Below, piece by piece: positions 15,917-48,887 of a stretch of 64,000 nucleotides of DNA. The notes under the pieces were generated by a model. The model searched no databases, was not told where the DNA came from, and worked only from the letters and a program-made list of their open reading frames with translations. This stretch comes from Terribacillus aidingensis (lineage in GTDB: Bacteria > Bacillota > Bacilli > Bacillales > Amphibacillaceae), in NCBI RefSeq assembly GCF_040703035.1, contig NZ_CP159996.1:468001-532000 (forward strand). Reading direction: 5' to 3'. Positions within the stretch are counted from its first letter, which is position 1. Each line of letters begins with the position of its first letter. The position numbers and the translations under genes were made by a program.

Positions 15917-15957
15917 TAAAAAGGTTTTTTAATTGCATACAAATCCTCATCATTTGA

Positions 15958-16138
15958 TGAGGTAGAGGTTGCGGCTGTTATGAGTACAGACTGGAAGATC
16001 AGGAGATATCGTTGATCAGGATGGAAAGGAACAGCTGCCGAAGCCGGATGGATTCTCCAATCCTACTGGCTGGGCCTGCACTCGAATAGGGGCAGGACTG
16101 TCACGTCAGTCGCAAAGCTGGCGTGTTGCGCTATCTTT
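15958..16138 (+). promoter_or_regulatory. lysine riboswitch (L-box)
   Basis: The conserved L-box core is readable: GGTAGAGGTTGCGG at the 5' end, TATGAGTA, GGAACAGCTGCCGAAGCC, TACTGGCTGGGCCTGC and GACTGTCAC near the 3' end. The closing helix pairs AGGTAG (15960-15965) with CTATCT (16131-16136). A terminator hairpin follows, so high lysine should stop transcription before the permease gene. This supports a lysine substrate for the downstream transporter. Confidence 0.92.
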
Positions 16139-16164
16139 GTGAGAATGATGCTGTTTATAAGTAA

Positions 16165-19972: not shown

Positions 19973-19993
19973 TTCTGAAAACTGTATATGTTT

Positions 19994-20094
19994 CTTATCT
20001 AGAGAGGTGGAGGGATATGGCCCTGTGAAACCTCAGCAGCAGGTCTGACAACAGATACTGTGCTAATTCCATCGGTTCATAGCCGGCAGATAAG
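19994..20094 (+). promoter_or_regulatory. SAM-I riboswitch (S-box)
   Basis: The P1 helix pairs CTTATCT with AGATAAG. The conserved S-box blocks are present in order: AGAGGTGGAGGGA, GGCCCTGTGAAACCTC, GTGCTAATTCCA and the P4 arm. The internal GGCAACC segment of the consensus is altered to CAGCAGCAGGT. A terminator follows at 20106. High S-adenosylmethionine should turn the downstream gene off. Confidence 0.9.
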
Positions 20095-20105
20095 ATGAAT
20101 AGAGG

Positions 20106-41652: not shown

Positions 41653-43338
41653 TTAATATTTGAACCGGTTCACAATAATTTGCAATTCCTCAGCTAAATC
41701 CGAAAGAGAAACAGCAGCATTCGAAATATCTTCCATAGAACTTAATTGTTCGTCTGTTGCTGAAGCAACAGCCTTGGAGCTGGATGATGTTTCTTTTGTT
41801 CCTGTTTCAAGAGTTGAAAGACTATGCTGCACTACTTCTACACCTGCAGTTAATTGCTGGGTGGCAGCTGCAACTTCTTGAATCTGGGCTGTTATCTGTC
41901 CAACAAGATTTAATATCTCGTTAAACTGCTGCTGGCTTTCGTTAGCGTAATTCATGCCTGAATCCACATTTTTCTGCACATTATGGATATTGACTACGGT
42001 ATCTTTTGAGTCCGTTTCTATTGTGGAAACTAAGTGCTTAATATGGCTGGCAGATTGGTTTGTTTCATCAGCCAGCTTTCGGACTTCTTCGGCTACAACG
42101 GCAAAACCTTTTCCTTGTTCACCGGCTCGTGCAGCTTCAATGGCTGCATTTAATGCAAGGAGATTGGTTTGTTCCGAGATGTCTGTGATGAGAGAGGACA
42201 TGTGACTTATTTCTGTTGTGCTTCTCACTAATGACTCTAATCCGCTCCCAGCTTCTTGGACAGAGTGATTGATTACAGTCATTTGTTCTGACATCATATT
42301 TACAGAAGAGACACCCAGCTCTGCTTTATCCTTCATAAAGGAGGAATTTTCAGCAATGCGGTTTGTGTTGTCAGCTACATTGGAAAGGCTCTCTAAAATC
42401 TCTGTTATGGATCCAGAGCTCTGTTCTGTCATGTTACTTTGATTTGTACTAGTTAAAGCAATTTCCTTCATGGATTGTGAGATTTGGTCTGAAGTAGCTC
42501 TAGACTGTTCAGAGCTTGCCGATAATTCTTCTGAAGCGGCCGCGACCTGTTGGGATGAACTGCTGATCTGCTTTACGATACCTGCCAGTGAGTGAACAAA
42601 AGCATTAAAGGATGCGGCAAGCTGACCAAATTCATCCTTACTTTTGACTGCGACTTTTTGAGTCAGGTCCGCATCTCCCTGTGCAATATCCTCAAGCTGC
42701 CTATTTAAACTTCTAAGAGGCACCAGGATGGATTTCAGAAGCAGCATACTCAAAAGGATACCTAATATAATGGAAATTATTGTAACTAAACTAATGAACC
42801 ATCCACTTACAGTTCCATATCTATGAATATCTGCTTCTAAATCATTCACATCATTATTCAATTGATCGACTAACTCATTTACGGATGGATCTAGTAATTC
42901 CTTCCGTAATGTTCTTTCCTCTCCTAAGTGAAGTGATTCTGCTTGTTCGGGATTGGAGGCAAATTGAGTTACTACTTCCTGATTCATACTCCAAAACTCT
43001 GAAAAGTTATCCCGAATATCATTTACGTTCGTCAAATAATCCTTATTGTGGATGAGTGATTCCAATTCATCTAAAGTTGAGAAGATATCCTCGGATTTCT
43101 CTTCCATTCCATCAGAGAAATCCTGTTCGCCAGTGATGAGAAAACCTCTTTCATCATTCGATAAGCCAGCTAGTCTATACTGGACATGTTTGATTTTGTT
43201 TTGAAACTCCATTTTATCCTTTAGGATATCATTCTTCTCTGTAATGGAAGAATTGATGAAGATGGAGGAAACCCCAATTAGTAATAAGGAAAATATTAAA
43301 ATTGAAATTATACCAAGAAGTTTTGTTTTGATTTTCAC
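41653..43338 (-). CDS. methyl-accepting chemotaxis protein with extracellular sensor
   Basis: Chemoreceptor of 561 aa. Membrane helices at about 7-29 and 180-205 flank a helical extracellular sensor of the CHASE3/4HB type ([20 protein letters not shown] is typical of CHASE3). A HAMP domain follows ([20 protein letters not shown]), then the signalling coiled coil with the conserved tip [20 protein letters not shown]. The GTG start has AAAGGAAT upstream. A sigma-D-like promoter is seen about 110 bp upstream. The ligand is unknown. Its last residues are the closest match to the relic at 33494. Confidence 0.93.
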
Positions 43339-43476: not shown

Positions 43477-43702
43477 AGGCTCTTACGAGATATAACAAGA
43501 GAGCTAGGTGTTTCAGTTGAATTAAAAAGCTACAGATTAATCTGTAGCTCACTAAAATTGTTAAATAACTGCCTCTTTCATGTCGATTAGCGTCAATAAT
43601 GATCGTTCTCATTAACAGCCTGTTTACAATGAATTGACCTCTTCTTAACAGTCCTCTGGTATCTTACTTATGTACCTTAATTTTCTAAAGGGAGAGGTTT
43701 CA

Positions 43703-43891
43703 ATGCTGAAAAAATGGATGGTAGCATTGGGAATGGTTTCAGTTCTTATGTTGGCGGCATGTAATGATGGTGACGATGAAGATCCAGCTGATGATGAGCA
43801 AATGGAGGAACAAGAGCAAGAACAGGAACAAGATCAAGATCAAGAGCAAGATACTGATGATAGAGAAGAAGATACAGATCAATCTGAATAA
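43703..43891 (+). CDS. small acidic lipoprotein
   Basis: Protein of 62 aa. The signal peptide LKKWMVALGMVSVLMLAAC ends in a lipobox (LAAC), so the mature protein starts at C21 and is membrane-anchored. The mature 42 residues are almost entirely D, E and Q (EEQEQEQEQDQDQEQDTDDR), so it is highly negative and unfolded. The ATG at 43703 has GGGAGAGG upstream. Such short acidic lipoproteins are common in halotolerant Bacillaceae; function unknown. Confidence 0.75.
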   Translation: MLKKWMVALGMVSVLMLAACNDGDDEDPADDEQMEEQEQEQEQDQDQEQDTDDREEDTDQSE

Positions 43892-43935: not shown

Positions 43936-44490
43936 AATTCAGTACTACATGAACACCCATTTAGAATTAAAGTGGTGCACTATAAAAACATTCTTTTATT
44001 AGTGAAAGTAATGAGTGGTAGGAATAAGACATATAGGCAGTTACTAGCCTCTCAAGTGTACAGCTTTACAAGAGGCAATTTTTTCCGTTTTGAAAAAAGC
44101 TAATCGAGTAGTACCCAGCCAATTGAGATTGAGAAACAGAGGTGAGATTTTTTGGTTAACAATTATATTTGGAATATTGATTAAATGTTTGTATGGGGAC
44201 TCTCTTATTCTTTTGAACTAGCTGGAACGATACTATATCGTGAACATCTTTAAACATTTAACAATTTCTATTTAAATTGTCTGTAGTTGACCGATATAAG
44301 GGAGGCAGGTGGTTTTAATGCATAGTAAATAAGACCTTCGAAAACATCCTTTAAGTGGTGGTTGATGAATTAATATACCTATAAATAGGGGAATTAGTTA
44401 TAATTAGACAAGAAAATATGAGTAATTTATAATGCGAAAGGGAACGTGAAGTTGTGGCGTGGTGTATTTAGAACTATAAATCAAAATTAT
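43936..44490. other. long leader region before the c-di-GMP riboswitch
   Basis: No ORF of note. A hairpin GCCTCT / AGAGGC with a T-run lies at 44047-44084. A sigma-D-like -10 element ACCGATAT stands at 44290-44297, with TAAA 13 bp upstream. It is followed by AAGGGAGG and a four-codon ORF (MHSK). A TATAAT at 44399-44404 is a second possible promoter. The true start of the riboswitch transcript is not clear. Confidence 0.45.
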
Positions 44491-44568
44491 TAGGCAAACT
44501 TATCGAAAGATAGGGACGCAAAGCTACGAGTCTAATATCCGTATGGATAATGATAGTCGGGTTGCCAA
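44491..44568 (+). promoter_or_regulatory. cyclic-di-GMP-I riboswitch (GEMM)
   Basis: The GEMM-I core is clear. P1 pairs GGCAA with TTGCC. P2 is CTTATC-GAAA-GATAGG with the docking GAAA tetraloop. Next comes the invariant GGGACGCAAAGC, then the P3 arm and ATAGTCGGGTTGCC at the 3' side. A terminator follows 20 bp later, so the switch acts on transcription of the three downstream genes. Whether c-di-GMP turns them on or off is not decided by reading. Confidence 0.9.
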
Positions 44569-44587
44569 GTATGAAATTATATCATTG

Positions 44588-44619
44588 GCTATCCTTGTCT
44601 ATATTAGGATAGCTTTTTT
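44588..44619 (+). terminator. riboswitch-controlled terminator
   Basis: A perfect 8-bp stem GCTATCCT / AGGATAGC followed by six T residues, between the c-di-GMP aptamer and the first gene of the operon. Confidence 0.88.
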
Positions 44620-44675
44620 CACACTTAAGCGGTAATTATAGTTTTACCAGGCCTATAGAAAAAGGAGCGAACGAA

Positions 44676-45044
44676 ATGATAGTAGTAGATAAAAAGAAGT
44701 ATAAGATGGCGATTGATGAAAATTCCAAAGAAGTACATGTCCAGGTGCATGGATTAATGAGGGAGGAAGATGCAGAAGGATATATGGTCGATTTGCAGGA
44801 TACGATCAATAAAGTATCTAGAAAGGATTATACTTTTGTTGTCGATGGAACTCATCAAACACCTGTACCTTCGAAGGTTGTACCGCAGTTGGAACAAACA
44901 ATGCAATTCTATTCTACTTTAGGTTTTAAAGATACAATTGTAATAAAACCTTCTTCTAAAATCGCTCAAGTGCAAATTAGGAACGCCCTTGAAAGAATTG
45001 AATTCACGGGAAGGTTTATGGATAAAGTAAATCATTCTATGTAA
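44676..45044 (+). CDS. STAS-like small protein, first gene of the c-di-GMP-switched operon
   Basis: Soluble protein of 122 aa with alternating beta strands and helices (YKMAIDENSKEVHVQVHGLM, then DYTFVVDGTHQTPVPSKVVP and GFKDTIVIKPSSKIAQVQIR). The pattern is like STAS/SpoIIAA folds that mediate protein-protein switching, but the assignment is by topology only. The RBS is AAAGGAGCG. It is first after the riboswitch terminator and lies 42 bp before the GNAT-like gene. A partner-binding role for the chemoreceptor downstream is inference. Confidence 0.65.
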   Translation: MIVVDKKKYKMAIDENSKEVHVQVHGLMREEDAEGYMVDLQDTINKVSRKDYTFVVDGTHQTPVPSKVVPQLEQTMQFYSTLGFKDTIVIKPSSKIAQVQIRNALERIEFTGRFMDKVNHSM

Positions 45045-45086
45045 CATCCGGTTCGCCAAATTTGCAGTGAAAAGGGAGATTAAAAC

Positions 45087-45797
45087 ATGCAAGCAACACA
45101 GGAATTGTATACATATGAAATTTTAACAAAGAATCAAACAGAAATGATTCAAAAAGCTGCCGAATGTCTTGCCCGTACATTTATTGGTGTAGATGTTGCA
45201 GGGAAATGGGTTCAGGAACCGATGGTTGGACAATTAAGTATAGCGTATGAAGATTTCTATGCTTTTACCAAGGATTATTTGGATTCAACTGTAGACCAAG
45301 GATATTGCGCAGTCGCTCTAGACACTGATAATCATGTTGTAGGTGTACTTGCCGGTGATACCAATGCACCCGAAATTATCGGAGAGGATGTATTCGAAGG
45401 TTCTTTCTATGATATGAATGTTATTCTTCACGTACTGGAAGACGTAGATAAACGCTTTATCGAAGACTATAAAAGACGTAGCGGAAAAGATATTTCCGAT
45501 GGGGATATGTTGCACCTATTTATGTTGGGCGTGATAGCTGAACAAGAGCGTCATGAAGTAATTAAGCAATTAGGAAATAGATTGATTACAAAAGCAGCGA
45601 AGCAGGGGCTGAAGGCAGTAGTGGGCGAAGCGACAAACCCTAAATCGATTCGTGTGATGGAAAAATATCACAACATGAAAAAATACCAAGATATCGAAGG
45701 TAATCATATTGTTCATATGTATAAAGACAATAGCAAACTGCAAGCCATTCCTGCGAATGTAGCTGATGGAACATACATTATTATAAGAGAACTATAA
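45087..45797 (+). CDS. GNAT-like acetyltransferase, second gene of the c-di-GMP-switched operon
   Basis: Protein of 236 aa with the GNAT fold layout: N-terminal YEILTKNQTEMIQKAAECLA, a beta strand YCAVALDTDNHVVGVLAGDT near residue 73, and MLGVIAEQERHEVIKQLGNR near 146, where the acetyl-CoA loop (Q/RxxGxG/A) is degenerate as HEVIKQLG. The C-terminal ATNPKSIRVMEKYHNMKKYQ matches the usual last helix. It could be an enzyme or a GNAT-derived ligand sensor. It sits between the STAS-like and chemoreceptor genes in one transcript. Confidence 0.7.
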   Translation: MQATQELYTYEILTKNQTEMIQKAAECLARTFIGVDVAGKWVQEPMVGQLSIAYEDFYAFTKDYLDSTVDQGYCAVALDTDNHVVGVLAGDTNAPEIIGEDVFEGSFYDMNVILHVLEDVDKRFIEDYKRRSGKDISDGDMLHLFMLGVIAEQERHEVIKQLGNRLITKAAKQGLKAVVGEATNPKSIRVMEKYHNMKKYQDIEGNHIVHMYKDNSKLQAIPANVADGTYIIIREL

Positions 45798-45841
45798 AAA
45801 TATAATTCTGATTGAAACAGAAAGTAGGAGTTTAATTTATC

Positions 45842-46966
45842 ATGGAATTTTACTTGATAGGAATAATAGTCATTCTATTGATAGCTTTAGGTTATTTTGC
45901 TTATCAATATGTTGCACTGAAACGTCGTGCACAATTTAACACTTCAGGCAGTGGCGATGAAATTATTTTAAATCGCACTGGGAATGAGCAGCAGCTTGAG
46001 AACTTCAGCCATATAGAAAAGAAACTACTATCGTTATCAAAAGATGTGAATGAAAAAGGCGTAAATCTTGCGGAAACAGGTGAATATGCTTCTGAACAAG
46101 CTGATATTGTCAGAGCAGCAATTGACGAGGTAGGCAGAGGATTAGAGAAACAATTAGTAGCCACAGAAGAAAGTGCTGCCTCCATGGAAGAAATGACACA
46201 AGCGATAGAAAATTTATCAGTTAGATCTAATCAGATTTCAGAACAATCCATTACTACGCTAGAATTAACGCAGCAAGGAAATGAGAAACTAAAAGATTCC
46301 TTGGTAAAGATGGATCAATTTAATCAAACAGTAAATACAACCTCTAATGCCATAAACAAACTTGGAGAAAAATCTTATGAAATCAGCAGTATTGTTAAGG
46401 TGATTACAGAGATCTCTGAACAAATTAATCTGCTGGCGCTGAATGCAGCGATAGAAGCTGCTCGAGCAGGCGAAAATGGTAAAGGATTTGCTGTTGTTGC
46501 AGATGAGGTAAGAAAATTAGCGGAACAAACTCGCCAATCTACTTCAGAAGTATCACATATCGTGAAAAATATACAAGAAGAAACAGCTATAGTGGTTAAG
46601 TCAATGAACCAGGGGACCGAAGAATTTAAAGATACGAATGCAGACATTTTAGAGGTTGGAAATATGTTCGAAAAGATACTATCTACTACAAAAATTATTG
46701 CTGAAAACAACGAGAACTCTTCTGCAAACACAGAAGAATTATCTACTGCTTCACAACAGATCATGACAACAATCGTTGAGATTGCATCTATCTCACGAGA
46801 ATCGGTGGAGATGTTTGAGGAACTAATTGAGATTAATGATGAGGAACTTCATACGATACAAAACCTGGTTGAGAAAGCAAGAAATCTTATAAACCACAAA
46901 AACGTAGTAGGCGAACTACTAAAAGAGAATGATGATGTTAAAGCAGAGGAAGTAAAAGCGAGTTAA
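45842..46966 (+). CDS. chemoreceptor without sensor domain, third gene of the c-di-GMP-switched operon
   Basis: Methyl-accepting chemotaxis protein of 374 aa. A single N-terminal membrane helix (residues about 3-24) is followed directly by a cytoplasmic coiled coil with the conserved signalling tip [20 protein letters not shown] and [18 protein letters not shown]. There is no extracellular or HAMP domain, so any signal must come through partners or the membrane. The two small genes upstream are natural candidates for such partners. A long terminator hairpin follows at 47062. Confidence 0.9.
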
Positions 46967-47061
46967 AAATGCCAGAATAAAAGGTCAAGGTAGCAGTTTG
47001 ACAATATTCGCCTTACCGAATGAAAATATAAGGCTTCTCCATAATTTATCTAATATGGGAT

Positions 47062-47127
47062 GATCCCCTTTTAGTAAACAGATTAAAGAGAGCATTCTGA
47101 TCTGTTTATTAAGGAGGGGATCTTTTT
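47062..47127 (+). terminator. long hairpin terminator of the c-di-GMP-switched operon
   Basis: GATCCCC and AAACAGAT arms pair with ATCTGTTT and GGGGATC, followed by TTTTT. The right arm also contains an AAGGAGGGG sequence followed by a 14-codon ORF (MRKLLALVLICSYS at 47131), which is probably fortuitous. Confidence 0.85.
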
Positions 47128-47252
47128 CTTATGAGAAAATTACTTGCGCTTGTCTTAATTTGTTCTTATAGCTAACAATCCCCTTTTCTACCTAATACAT
47201 AAAATCGCAATCAGTAATTTCTATAATTATTTAGACATTAGGAGGTAAAATA

Positions 47253-48887
47253 ATGAAGGAAATTCAAAAATTATATCCTAGTATGGACGGGAATGACTTT
47301 CAAAGAGAGGAATTATTGTCCTTTTTTAAGTCGATTTTAACAAAAATAGATGAATTAAAAGATCCTAACAAACTAACGCTAGGAGAAATGCCTGAGTACA
47401 CGGAGGATTACTATAATCGCGTTATTCAAAAGGCGTCTGTTCCAAATACAGGAGTGTCGATGGAGGAAGTGGTTCAGGAGCTTCTAAAATTAGTAGAAGG
47501 GCACCGGTTCGTCAATCGAAACTATGTAGCCAATGCAGCTCCCCTTCCCAATATTGCTAGTATCCTTGGTAATCTGGTAATGGTTTTAGTTAATGGTAAT
47601 AATCTATGGGATGTGGAGGGACCAGCAGCAGCAAAAGCAGAAGTCGAAGTAGCTGCAATGCTATCCAAACTTATCGGATACGATGAAAGCATCAGCGCAG
47701 GATATACAACATGGGGAGGACAAGGGGCTGTCTTTAACTCTTTACGTCTTGCCATTGCCCGTTACGAGCCGTTCTCTAATCAAAATGGTGTACCGCAAAA
47801 TCTCTATTGTTTCTGTTCAGAGCTATCACACTACAGTCTGCTTAAATCTGTAGAAGCAACTGGGATTGGCATAGAAAACATGATTCGAGTGAAAGTTAAT
47901 GCTGATCATTCAATCAATCTAGAAGATTTAAAAGAAAAAATGGAGCATATTATTGCAAAAGGCGGTGTTCCGCTTTATGTCCTTGCCACAATGGGAACTA
48001 CTGATACATTTGGGGTTGATGACATTAAGGGGATTAAGCATATAGCGGTAGAAATGGAACGCACCTATGGCATAGATCCAATTTATATCCATGCAGACTC
48101 TGCTATGGGGGGCATGTATACTTTCTTTAATAATTACAGCTTTGAAAGCAATACTTTGCAATTTACAGACAACGTTATTGAGGTATTGAAATCCTATCAA
48201 CAAAAATTTAAAAATATAAATCTTGCAGATAGTATGGTCTTTGATTTCCATAAGCTTGGACAAACGCCATATATCACAAGTTTATTTTTAATCAAAAACA
48301 AAGAGTATCTTAAGAATGTTGATTTAGATGCAGTAGAAACGCCGTATGTTGGGAATCGCGGTTATGGTAGTTATCATACAGGTTACACGCTCGAATGCTC
48401 GCGAATGGGAAGTGCTTTGGCGATTTATGCATCTTTACTAGCATTTGGAATTGAAGGCTATCAAAAGCTTTTAGCCAATTATATTCATGTTAATATTGCA
48501 TTTAGAGAGACACTAAAAAGGGAATTTCCGAATGTGGCAATCACGAATGAGGTTTCTCCTATTACAACATTCCGTTTTTATCCTGAGAAGAATAAATGGA
48601 ATGGTGAATTGAATGGACTGTTAACTATAGAAGAAATGACGGAAATTAATCAATTTAATGACGGGTTTGCAGAGATGATTGGAGCCGAACGAGATACCGT
48701 CTACTTTGGATTTACAAAAAAGCAGCGTCTCGTGGAAGCAGCAAACTCAAACAATCGAATATCCATATATGCGCATAAATTTTTTGCAATCTCGCCATAC
48801 TCGACAATAGAAGAAGTCGACCGTTATGTTGGATTCTTAAAAGAACACTTAGACTTATTTATGAAGACGACAGTAGTACAAGTATAA
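47253..48887 (+). CDS. group II PLP-dependent amino acid decarboxylase
   Basis: Decarboxylase of 544 aa with the fold of glutamate/tyrosine/2,4-diaminobutyrate decarboxylases. Visible are GYTTWGGQGAVFNSLRLAIA near residue 150, the PLP-contact HADSAMGG (D282), and the Schiff-base lysine K334 in MVFDFHKLGQTPY. An N-terminal extension and a C-terminal small domain complete it. The substrate cannot be told from sequence; the family makes amines such as tyramine or diaminopropane. The RBS is TTAGGAGGT. It stands alone, with no amino-acid antiporter nearby. Confidence 0.85.
   Translation: MKEIQKLYPSMDGNDFQREELLSFFKSILTKIDELKDPNKLTLGEMPEYTEDYYNRVIQKASVPNTGVSMEEVVQELLKLVEGHRFVNRNYVANAAPLPNIASILGNLVMVLVNGNNLWDVEGPAAAKAEVEVAAMLSKLIGYDESISAGYTTWGGQGAVFNSLRLAIARYEPFSNQNGVPQNLYCFCSELSHYSLLKSVEATGIGIENMIRVKVNADHSINLEDLKEKMEHIIAKGGVPLYVLATMGTTDTFGVDDIKGIKHIAVEMERTYGIDPIYIHADSAMGGMYTFFNNYSFESNTLQFTDNVIEVLKSYQQKFKNINLADSMVFDFHKLGQTPYITSLFLIKNKEYLKNVDLDAVETPYVGNRGYGSYHTGYTLECSRMGSALAIYASLLAFGIEGYQKLLANYIHVNIAFRETLKREFPNVAITNEVSPITTFRFYPEKNKWNGELNGLLTIEEMTEINQFNDGFAEMIGAERDTVYFGFTKKQRLVEAANSNNRISIYAHKFFAISPYSTIEEVDRYVGFLKEHLDLFMKTTVVQV

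Follow-up and report, generated by a model that had tools for sequence, protein, structure and literature searches.

Results

A riboswitch, three tandem genes and a decarboxylase gene

We have analysed a 64-kb window of Terribacillus aidingensis DNA, that is, the whole stretch that the scans covered and to whose positions the coordinates refer. In this window, a riboswitch of the class that binds cyclic dimeric guanosine monophosphate (c-di-GMP) stands ahead of three tandem genes, which encode a protein predicted to have a STAS fold (P1), a protein predicted to have the GNAT fold of the amine N-acetyltransferase (aaNAT) branch (P2), and a methyl-accepting chemotaxis protein (MCP; P3). A gene for a pyridoxal phosphate (PLP)-dependent amino acid decarboxylase follows them (Table 1). 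To avoid confusion, the aptamer helix P1 is always named as a helix.

Table 1 Features of the locus, in positions of the window
Feature	Position	Strand	Basis
Promoter-like site TAGACA-17-TATAAT	44405..44433	+	11/12 consensus matches
c-di-GMP-I (GEMM-I) riboswitch aptamer, GNRA loop	44483..44569	+	RF01051 sequence-structure model, 83.3 bits (gathering score 35), E 6.3e-15
First strand of the predicted antiterminator: GCCAA, from the 3' strand of aptamer helix P1 and its neighbour	44564..44568	+	
Second strand of the predicted antiterminator: TTGGC, which overlaps the terminator 5' strand	44585..44589	+	
Intrinsic terminator of the expression platform, GGCTATCCT / AGGATAGCT and T run	44587..44619	+	
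P1, STAS/SpoIIAA-fold protein, 122 aa	44676..45044	+	Fold from model
P2, aaNAT-fold protein of 236 aa whose acetyl-CoA loop is degenerate	45087..45797	+	Fold from model
P3, MCP with single N-terminal membrane helix, without sensor, without HAMP match, 374 aa	45842..46966	+	PF00015 E 1.2e-39, hydropathy
Long hairpin and T run between the MCP and decarboxylase genes	47062..47127	+	
Amino acid decarboxylase (group II, PLP-dependent) of 544 aa, a recurrent neighbour	47253..48887	+	PF00282 E 4.3e-27

An earlier note on this DNA had described a GEMM-I riboswitch with a GAAA tetraloop, followed by a terminator and three same-strand genes separated by 42–44 bp. This description agrees with our scans: the GAAA loop is present, and the gaps are 42 bp between the P1 and P2 genes and 44 bp between the P2 and P3 genes. 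Its left end at 44491, on the other hand, cuts 8 bases off the aptamer. The note had also placed a single long terminator at the end of the three genes; the hairpin with its T run is real, but it may not mark the operon end. Since a promoter-like site (46998-47027; of a kind that shuffled sequence yields at least as often) stands upstream of this very stable hairpin and the decarboxylase gene follows, the hairpin may be an attenuator leader of the decarboxylase gene instead. The Rfam scan of the window gave no further known riboswitch at gathering score in the gap 46967-47252. As for the promoter candidate ahead of the aptamer, it is argued mainly by its position, since promoter-like sites around 44405 are no commoner than chance (9 found, while 13.1 are expected from shuffles).

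The trio recurs in 34 of 37 loci

By scanning GTDB genomes with an alignment of the STAS protein, we have collected 37 loci, from Terribacillus, Niallia, Cytobacillus, Psychrobacillus, Lysinibacillus, Ureibacillus, Heyndrickxia, Oceanobacillus, other Bacillus-like genera and one Paenibacillus sp. The STAS, GNAT and MCP genes are complete, in this order and on one strand, in 34 of them. A gene order that is not conserved had been named beforehand as a result that could refute the earlier note, and this is not what we have found; the idea that the trio is an accident of one genome is likewise rejected by this recurrence. L056 and L057 hold STAS and MCP genes without the GNAT gene. In Halalkalibacterium halodurans (L044; L146:1660-2745) the MCP frame has just 83 aa and an IstB-like open reading frame (ORF; recognised by eye) lies nearby, and the whole unit appears to be decaying. 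Within the genus Terribacillus, the close STAS protein is patchy (3/9 genomes); a locus of Terribacillus saccharophilus encodes a STAS protein identical to P1, and a 98% homologue of P2 comes from Terribacillus sp.

A c-di-GMP-I-type aptamer precedes the STAS gene in 29/37 loci (12/12, 11/12, 5/12 and 1/1), the one of L035 being assigned to the GGC variant RF03167. At L044 the riboswitch score is low, 48.5 bits, and no decarboxylase was found in the locus. The 330 bases ahead of the L043 STAS gene give no Rfam match, but the platform letters GGTTGCCAAG and TTTGGCTACCC persist there, as if the aptamer had been partly deleted.

The leader is predicted to be an OFF switch

We have compared 30 leaders, namely those of the window and of 29 loci, among which the window, L023 and L024 are nearly identical. 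In 26 of the 30, at least five consecutive pairs are possible between the aptamer helix P1 3' strand (GCCAAG and variants) and a hexamer overlapping the terminator start. Folded as intermediates without ligand, with the terminator 3' half absent and no ligand energy included, the 30 leaders give this antiterminator pairing a median probability of 0.98; low values, 0 to 0.39, are seen for L036, L040, L044, L046, L058 and L059. A terminator-like hairpin was detected in all 30, the wrong hairpin being chosen in at least L058. For the window leader, aptamer helix P1 and the terminator coexist in the computed full-length fold. In computation, the antiterminator excludes helix P1, while the terminator is compatible with it.

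According to the accessible part of PMC9262584, the OFF switch Cd1 of C. difficile accommodates aptamer and terminator side by side, and in the ON switch pilM the two are mutually exclusive. Following this rule, the window leader is predicted by computation to be an OFF switch, because its helix P1 and terminator coexist. As far as that text goes, Cd1 is alike in this coexistence, in an antiterminator built from the aptamer 3' strand and in being an OFF switch; it differs in its setting, and the direction at the Terribacillus leader is a prediction only (PMC9262584).

Features of the three proteins

P1 has no Pfam match above cut-off and no STAS profile match in Pfam or NCBIfam, and its sequence profile gives nothing credible against the PDB. 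Its predicted model has the STAS/SpoIIAA fold, with no Foldseek match below E 0.001 (best 1.2e-3). For P2, the Pfam match to Acetyltransf_1 is sub-threshold (E 0.0047) and the sequence profile reaches only E 0.048 and 0.43 against the PDB; the predicted model is clearly a GNAT of the aaNAT branch. Since the profile searches against the PDB are weak, the fold calls of both proteins rest on predicted models. From the known STAS proteins SpoIIAA and RsbS, P1 differs in the absent Pfam and NCBIfam STAS match and in its neighbours, an enzyme fold and an MCP.

Residues of P2 were counted over the 120 listed of the 159 GNAT homologues found, with totals given per 121. E44 and P45 are kept in 121/121 and S187 in 120/121, the latter aligning with Ser171 of a Drosophila polyamine/agmatine N-acetyltransferase (NAT) chain (counted along the alignment). 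In aaNATs, Glu and Ser have catalytic roles, and the mutated residues appear in PDB titles. The catalytic Glu-Pro and Ser of the branch are present in P2, the Glu-Pro being mapped via a weak 3.4-bit stretch. The acetyl-CoA loop of GNAT proteins has the motif (Q/R)xxGx(G/A). In P2 both loop glycines are replaced: position 155 is Arg and position 159 Ile or Val in 121/121, while Gly stands at both in the aligned Drosophila NAT chain 5k9n. Compared with the amine N-acetyltransferases DmDAT (5gi5) and AgmNAT (7civ) and the viral polyamine NAT 3qb8, to which its identity is 17–20%, P2 differs in the lost acetyl-CoA loop and in its operon with a chemoreceptor.

P3 belongs to the MCP family by its MCPsignal domain, and the Pfam scan gave neither a HAMP nor a sensor domain match, so that the classical MCP layout is absent; hydropathy and the alignment of 37 indicate one hydrophobic N-terminal helix. 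In this alignment, the conservation of residues 61-110 is 0.83, compared with 0.83–0.93 for residues 111-330, and we take residues 61-110 as a candidate docking site. Since L056 and L057 hold STAS and MCP without GNAT, the gene content suggests the STAS protein as the part touching the MCP. In the T. aidingensis genome itself, CheA is matched once and GGDEF 10 times, two of the GGDEF matches being adjacent pieces. Overall, the protein claims of the earlier note, namely a chemoreceptor with one membrane helix and no sensor domain, a STAS-like first protein and a GNAT-like protein with a degenerate acetyl-CoA loop, are borne out by these scans and models. The decarboxylase and transporter neighbours, the aaNAT subtype and the predicted OFF logic go beyond it.

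Decarboxylase and transporter neighbours

A decarboxylase ortholog is found in 26 of the 37 loci, so the view that the conserved unit stops at the MCP is rejected; 24 of the orthologs are encoded downstream of the trio on its own strand, and in three of these cases the transporter gene intervenes. The order was represented by 397 genomes, of which 12 encode the GNAT, 28 a decarboxylase above 500 bits, and 10 both (hypergeometric P 3e-11, which treats the genomes as independent and ignores their kinship, though they are related). The protein is a group II PLP decarboxylase by its Pfam match. In the search for its substrate, the best NCBIfam match was far under cut-off and the PDB matches were scattered over many substrates.

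In four loci (L032, L046, L049 and L054), the decarboxylase is adjoined by a sodium:neurotransmitter symporter that has a c-di-GMP-I riboswitch of its own, and L027 and L029 hold remnants (partly recognised by eye). The symporter matches PF00209 (2.6e-55), and its nearest solved relative is MhsT, with 342 bits compared with 128 bits for LeuT (L032 protein only). MhsT transports hydrophobic and aromatic amino acids. Considering the MhsT-like transporter and the decarboxylase as neighbours, we would propose an aromatic or other small amine as the first ligand class to consider.

In the 18 genomes with a decarboxylase and no trio, a c-di-GMP-I riboswitch precedes the decarboxylase in at least four loci (L090, L096, L098 and L099), the riboswitch counts being lower bounds as the flanks of these loci were 1.5 kb. 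The symporter-decarboxylase pair has a c-di-GMP-I riboswitch in L176 and none in L177 or L178. Other MCP-type genes adjoin this pair without the trio, at L177:6178-7188 (-) and L178:17-1189 (+).

A sister cassette with a FabH-like protein

Distant relatives of the STAS protein were detected elsewhere in the order, as well as in a single additional family of the class (f48), where five genomes have them, and in the phylum, where two genomes gave weak matches. We have considered 33 such regions, counting L130 though no STAS ORF is shown there, and excluding L174 (the genome of L057) and four marginal matches (G271, G090, G313 and G374; E 4e-4 to 6e-4). A FabH-like gene adjoins the STAS gene in 22/33, 21 times on the same strand. 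In four of the 33 (L132, L135, L136 and L137), STAS, FabH-like and MCP genes follow in order on one strand, and a c-di-GMP-I riboswitch stands ahead of the STAS gene in L132 and L136. The leaders of these two keep the complementarity with different letters (TACCGAT and ATCGGTA, by eye). The L132 MCP, the one scanned among the four, has a HAMP match just under cut-off and no sensor match.

The FabH-like proteins carry PF08541/PF08545 (five scanned), and names among the similar proteins listed include Paenibacillus. With sites mapped on PDB FabH chains, the 120 listed of 211 homologues have the catalytic His replaced by Ser and the Asn by Tyr in 120/120, while the Cys is kept in 119/119 ungapped; in the 11 FabH-like sequences of A4, the His is Ser or Thr. 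That is, the Cys-His-Asn triad of FabH/KASIII is not complete in these partners.

In the f48 genomes, STAS-FabH follows genes for a thiamine pyrophosphate (TPP) enzyme and a CMD-family protein (three regions scanned). On one strand of L160:3577-7453 stand a c-di-GMP-I riboswitch, the TPP enzyme, the CMD-family protein, the STAS protein and the FabH-like pseudo-ketosynthase; L164 is without the riboswitch. Partner-switching kinase or phosphatase genes beside the f48 STAS gene were considered; the two genes inspected are those of the TPP enzyme and the CMD-family protein.

Judging from these neighbourhoods, members of the STAS family repeatedly have acyl-transfer folds as partners, to which two branches add an MCP. 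This parallel STAS-FabH-MCP cassette, together with the STAS-MCP pairs of L056 and L057, strengthens the idea that P1 and P2 may be the input of the receptor.

The T. aidingensis genome also holds a distant STAS paralog adjoining a PAS-containing MCP of 279 aa (L128:4964-6338, G000:C1 near 3010484), and in L168 an MCP of 305 aa stands at the same place as this PAS-containing MCP.

Discussion

Proposed mechanism

Based on the above analyses, we tentatively favour, with rather more doubt than confidence, the reading that c-di-GMP controls this locus as an operon, and that its chemoreceptor receives a cytosolic sensory input supplied in trans. At low c-di-GMP, as in a motile cell, an antiterminator made of the aptamer 3' strand and TTGGC would let transcription run into the operon; at high c-di-GMP, the aptamer helix would retain this strand, the terminator would form and the operon would be off. 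P2, which has the aaNAT fold and the amine-side residues but has lost the acetyl-CoA loop, would act as a small-amine binding protein, P1 would relay its state to the membrane-anchored, sensor-less P3, and P3 would feed CheA. The decarboxylase, in some genomes with the MhsT-like transporter, may produce or use up the amine being sensed, or else the amino acid from which this amine derives. Starting from the sequences, the synteny and the leader complementarity, and from predicted folds of the single proteins, we infer the protein contacts, the ligand, the direction of the switch in the cell and the chemotactic output.

A wider design, which we regard as rather unlikely, would have acyl-transfer-fold enzymes turned into cytosolic ligand sensors that drive sensor-less MCPs via dedicated STAS proteins, with c-di-GMP-I riboswitches timing their synthesis and, in the GNAT branch, a biogenic amine tied to the decarboxylase and MhsT-like transporter as the ligand. 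It covers two branches, amine N-acetyltransferase and FabH-type ketosynthase, with cofactor or catalytic residues lost.

Other explanations

The same gene content could also be read as P2 and the FabH-like proteins being active enzymes with an unusual acyl donor, where an N-acyl amine made from the decarboxylase product is sensed by the MCP or the STAS protein. The decarboxylase adjoining the trio, the TPP enzyme beside STAS-FabH in one family, the Glu-Pro and Ser kept in P2 homologues and the Cys kept in the FabH-like proteins are in line with this, as are the nearest folds of P2, which include the condensation domain of Ebony. The acyl group used by this domain is delivered by a carrier protein. 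Since the two acetyl-CoA loop glycines and the FabH-like catalytic His and Asn are lost in all the homologues counted, we consider active enzymes unlikely, though worth keeping in view. Co-regulation alone, with c-di-GMP repressing motile-state genes that share an operon or neighbourhood and form no single sensory complex, would fit the riboswitches that the decarboxylase or transporter has of its own in trio-free genomes (L090, L096, L098, L099 and L176), and it would fit the pair of the riboswitch Bc1 and the MCP gene mcpE, for which no such partners are described in the accessible text of PMC11218506. The one-strand order in 34/37 loci, the joining of two different enzyme-fold partners to the same STAS family and sensor-less MCPs, and a P3 without any input domain match make co-regulation alone fairly improbable. 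It is also conceivable that the MCP senses directly via its membrane or cytoplasmic helices, with P1 and P2 modulating adaptation or localisation: unconventional cytoplasmic sensing, as well as ethanol sensing, is reported for B. subtilis receptors in the available part of PMC7542364, and residues 61-110 of the MCP are conserved. Direct sensing leaves the conserved P1-P2 linkage unexplained, and we give it little credence.

Several observations weigh against the favoured reading, a cytosolic input supplied in trans. As for the switch, L036, L040, L044 and L059 (4/30 leaders) fall short of five pairs, L046 and L058 reach five pairs yet have computed probabilities of 0.17 and 0.05, three of the 30 compared leaders are near-identical, 8/37 loci have no riboswitch ahead of the STAS gene, and two of the four FabH-MCP cassettes (L135 and L137) have none either. 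In addition, the accessible text of PMC11218506 reports a B. thuringiensis c-di-GMP-I riboswitch before an MCP gene that hardly altered expression. The decarboxylase is absent from the available DNA of 11/37 loci, several of the loci ending early. The conserved Glu and Ser of P2 are also compatible with an active enzyme using another acyl donor, and the Glu-Pro mapping on the known enzyme 3qb8 relies on the 3.4-bit stretch. Of the 22 distant STAS-FabH pairs, 18 have no MCP directly after them on the same strand (nearby MCPs lie on the opposite strand in L138, L139 and L169, upstream in L142, and before the TPP enzyme in L160 and L163). Since one family moreover has the pair beside a TPP enzyme, STAS plus enzyme fold is, as the gene neighbourhoods stand, not tied to chemotaxis.

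Relation to known systems

Chemoreceptors fed in trans by periplasmic binding proteins are known. They resemble the proposed system in that a separate protein detects the ligand; the candidate binder P2 differs in that it is located in the cytosol, derives from an enzyme and has a STAS protein as its partner.

That c-di-GMP-I riboswitches stand ahead of MCP genes is already known (PMC11218506). As far as the available part of that paper describes it, 98.7% of 155 genomes from the B. cereus group carry Bc1-mcpE, which resembles our locus in a c-di-GMP-I riboswitch and terminators ahead of an MCP gene. Within the same limits, Bc1 lies in the 5' untranslated region of mcpE itself, has two terminators and responds weakly in the cell, c-di-GMP changing expression little; McpE is ~68.6 kDa as a doubly tagged protein, compared with the 374 aa of P3, and no STAS or GNAT partner is described, unlike in the trio (PMC11218506). 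Among the open PMC matches listed, we have found no description of the combination with decarboxylase, STAS, FabH, aaNAT or pseudoenzyme.

For most chemoreceptors the ligands are unknown, and receptors without a sensor domain are hard to explain. The repeated cassette of STAS protein, pseudoenzyme and MCP gives such receptors a testable input, would couple chemotactic input, through an RNA, to c-di-GMP, and directs attention to one ligand class, small amines, that can be screened directly. If the proposal is true, enzymes have been converted into chemotaxis sensors; the trio suggests a kind of cell-internal smelling that would be shut off once the cell settles.

Further features of the window and genome

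Just upstream of the locus, an ordinary CHASE3-HAMP chemoreceptor of 561 aa is encoded on the opposite strand (41653-43338, -), and a small, very acidic protein of 73 aa with a lipoprotein-like start is encoded at 43670-43891 (+). Elsewhere in the window, lysine and S-adenosylmethionine (SAM) riboswitches lie at 15955-16141 and 19992-20096, respectively. The genome has a second c-di-GMP-I riboswitch, scoring 61.3 bits, at G000:C1:934497-934582 (L144:5998-6083), and the gene after it (L144:6132-7160, 342 aa) resembles an HD-GYP phosphodiesterase, with HDIGK and HHERLNRQGYP recognised by eye.

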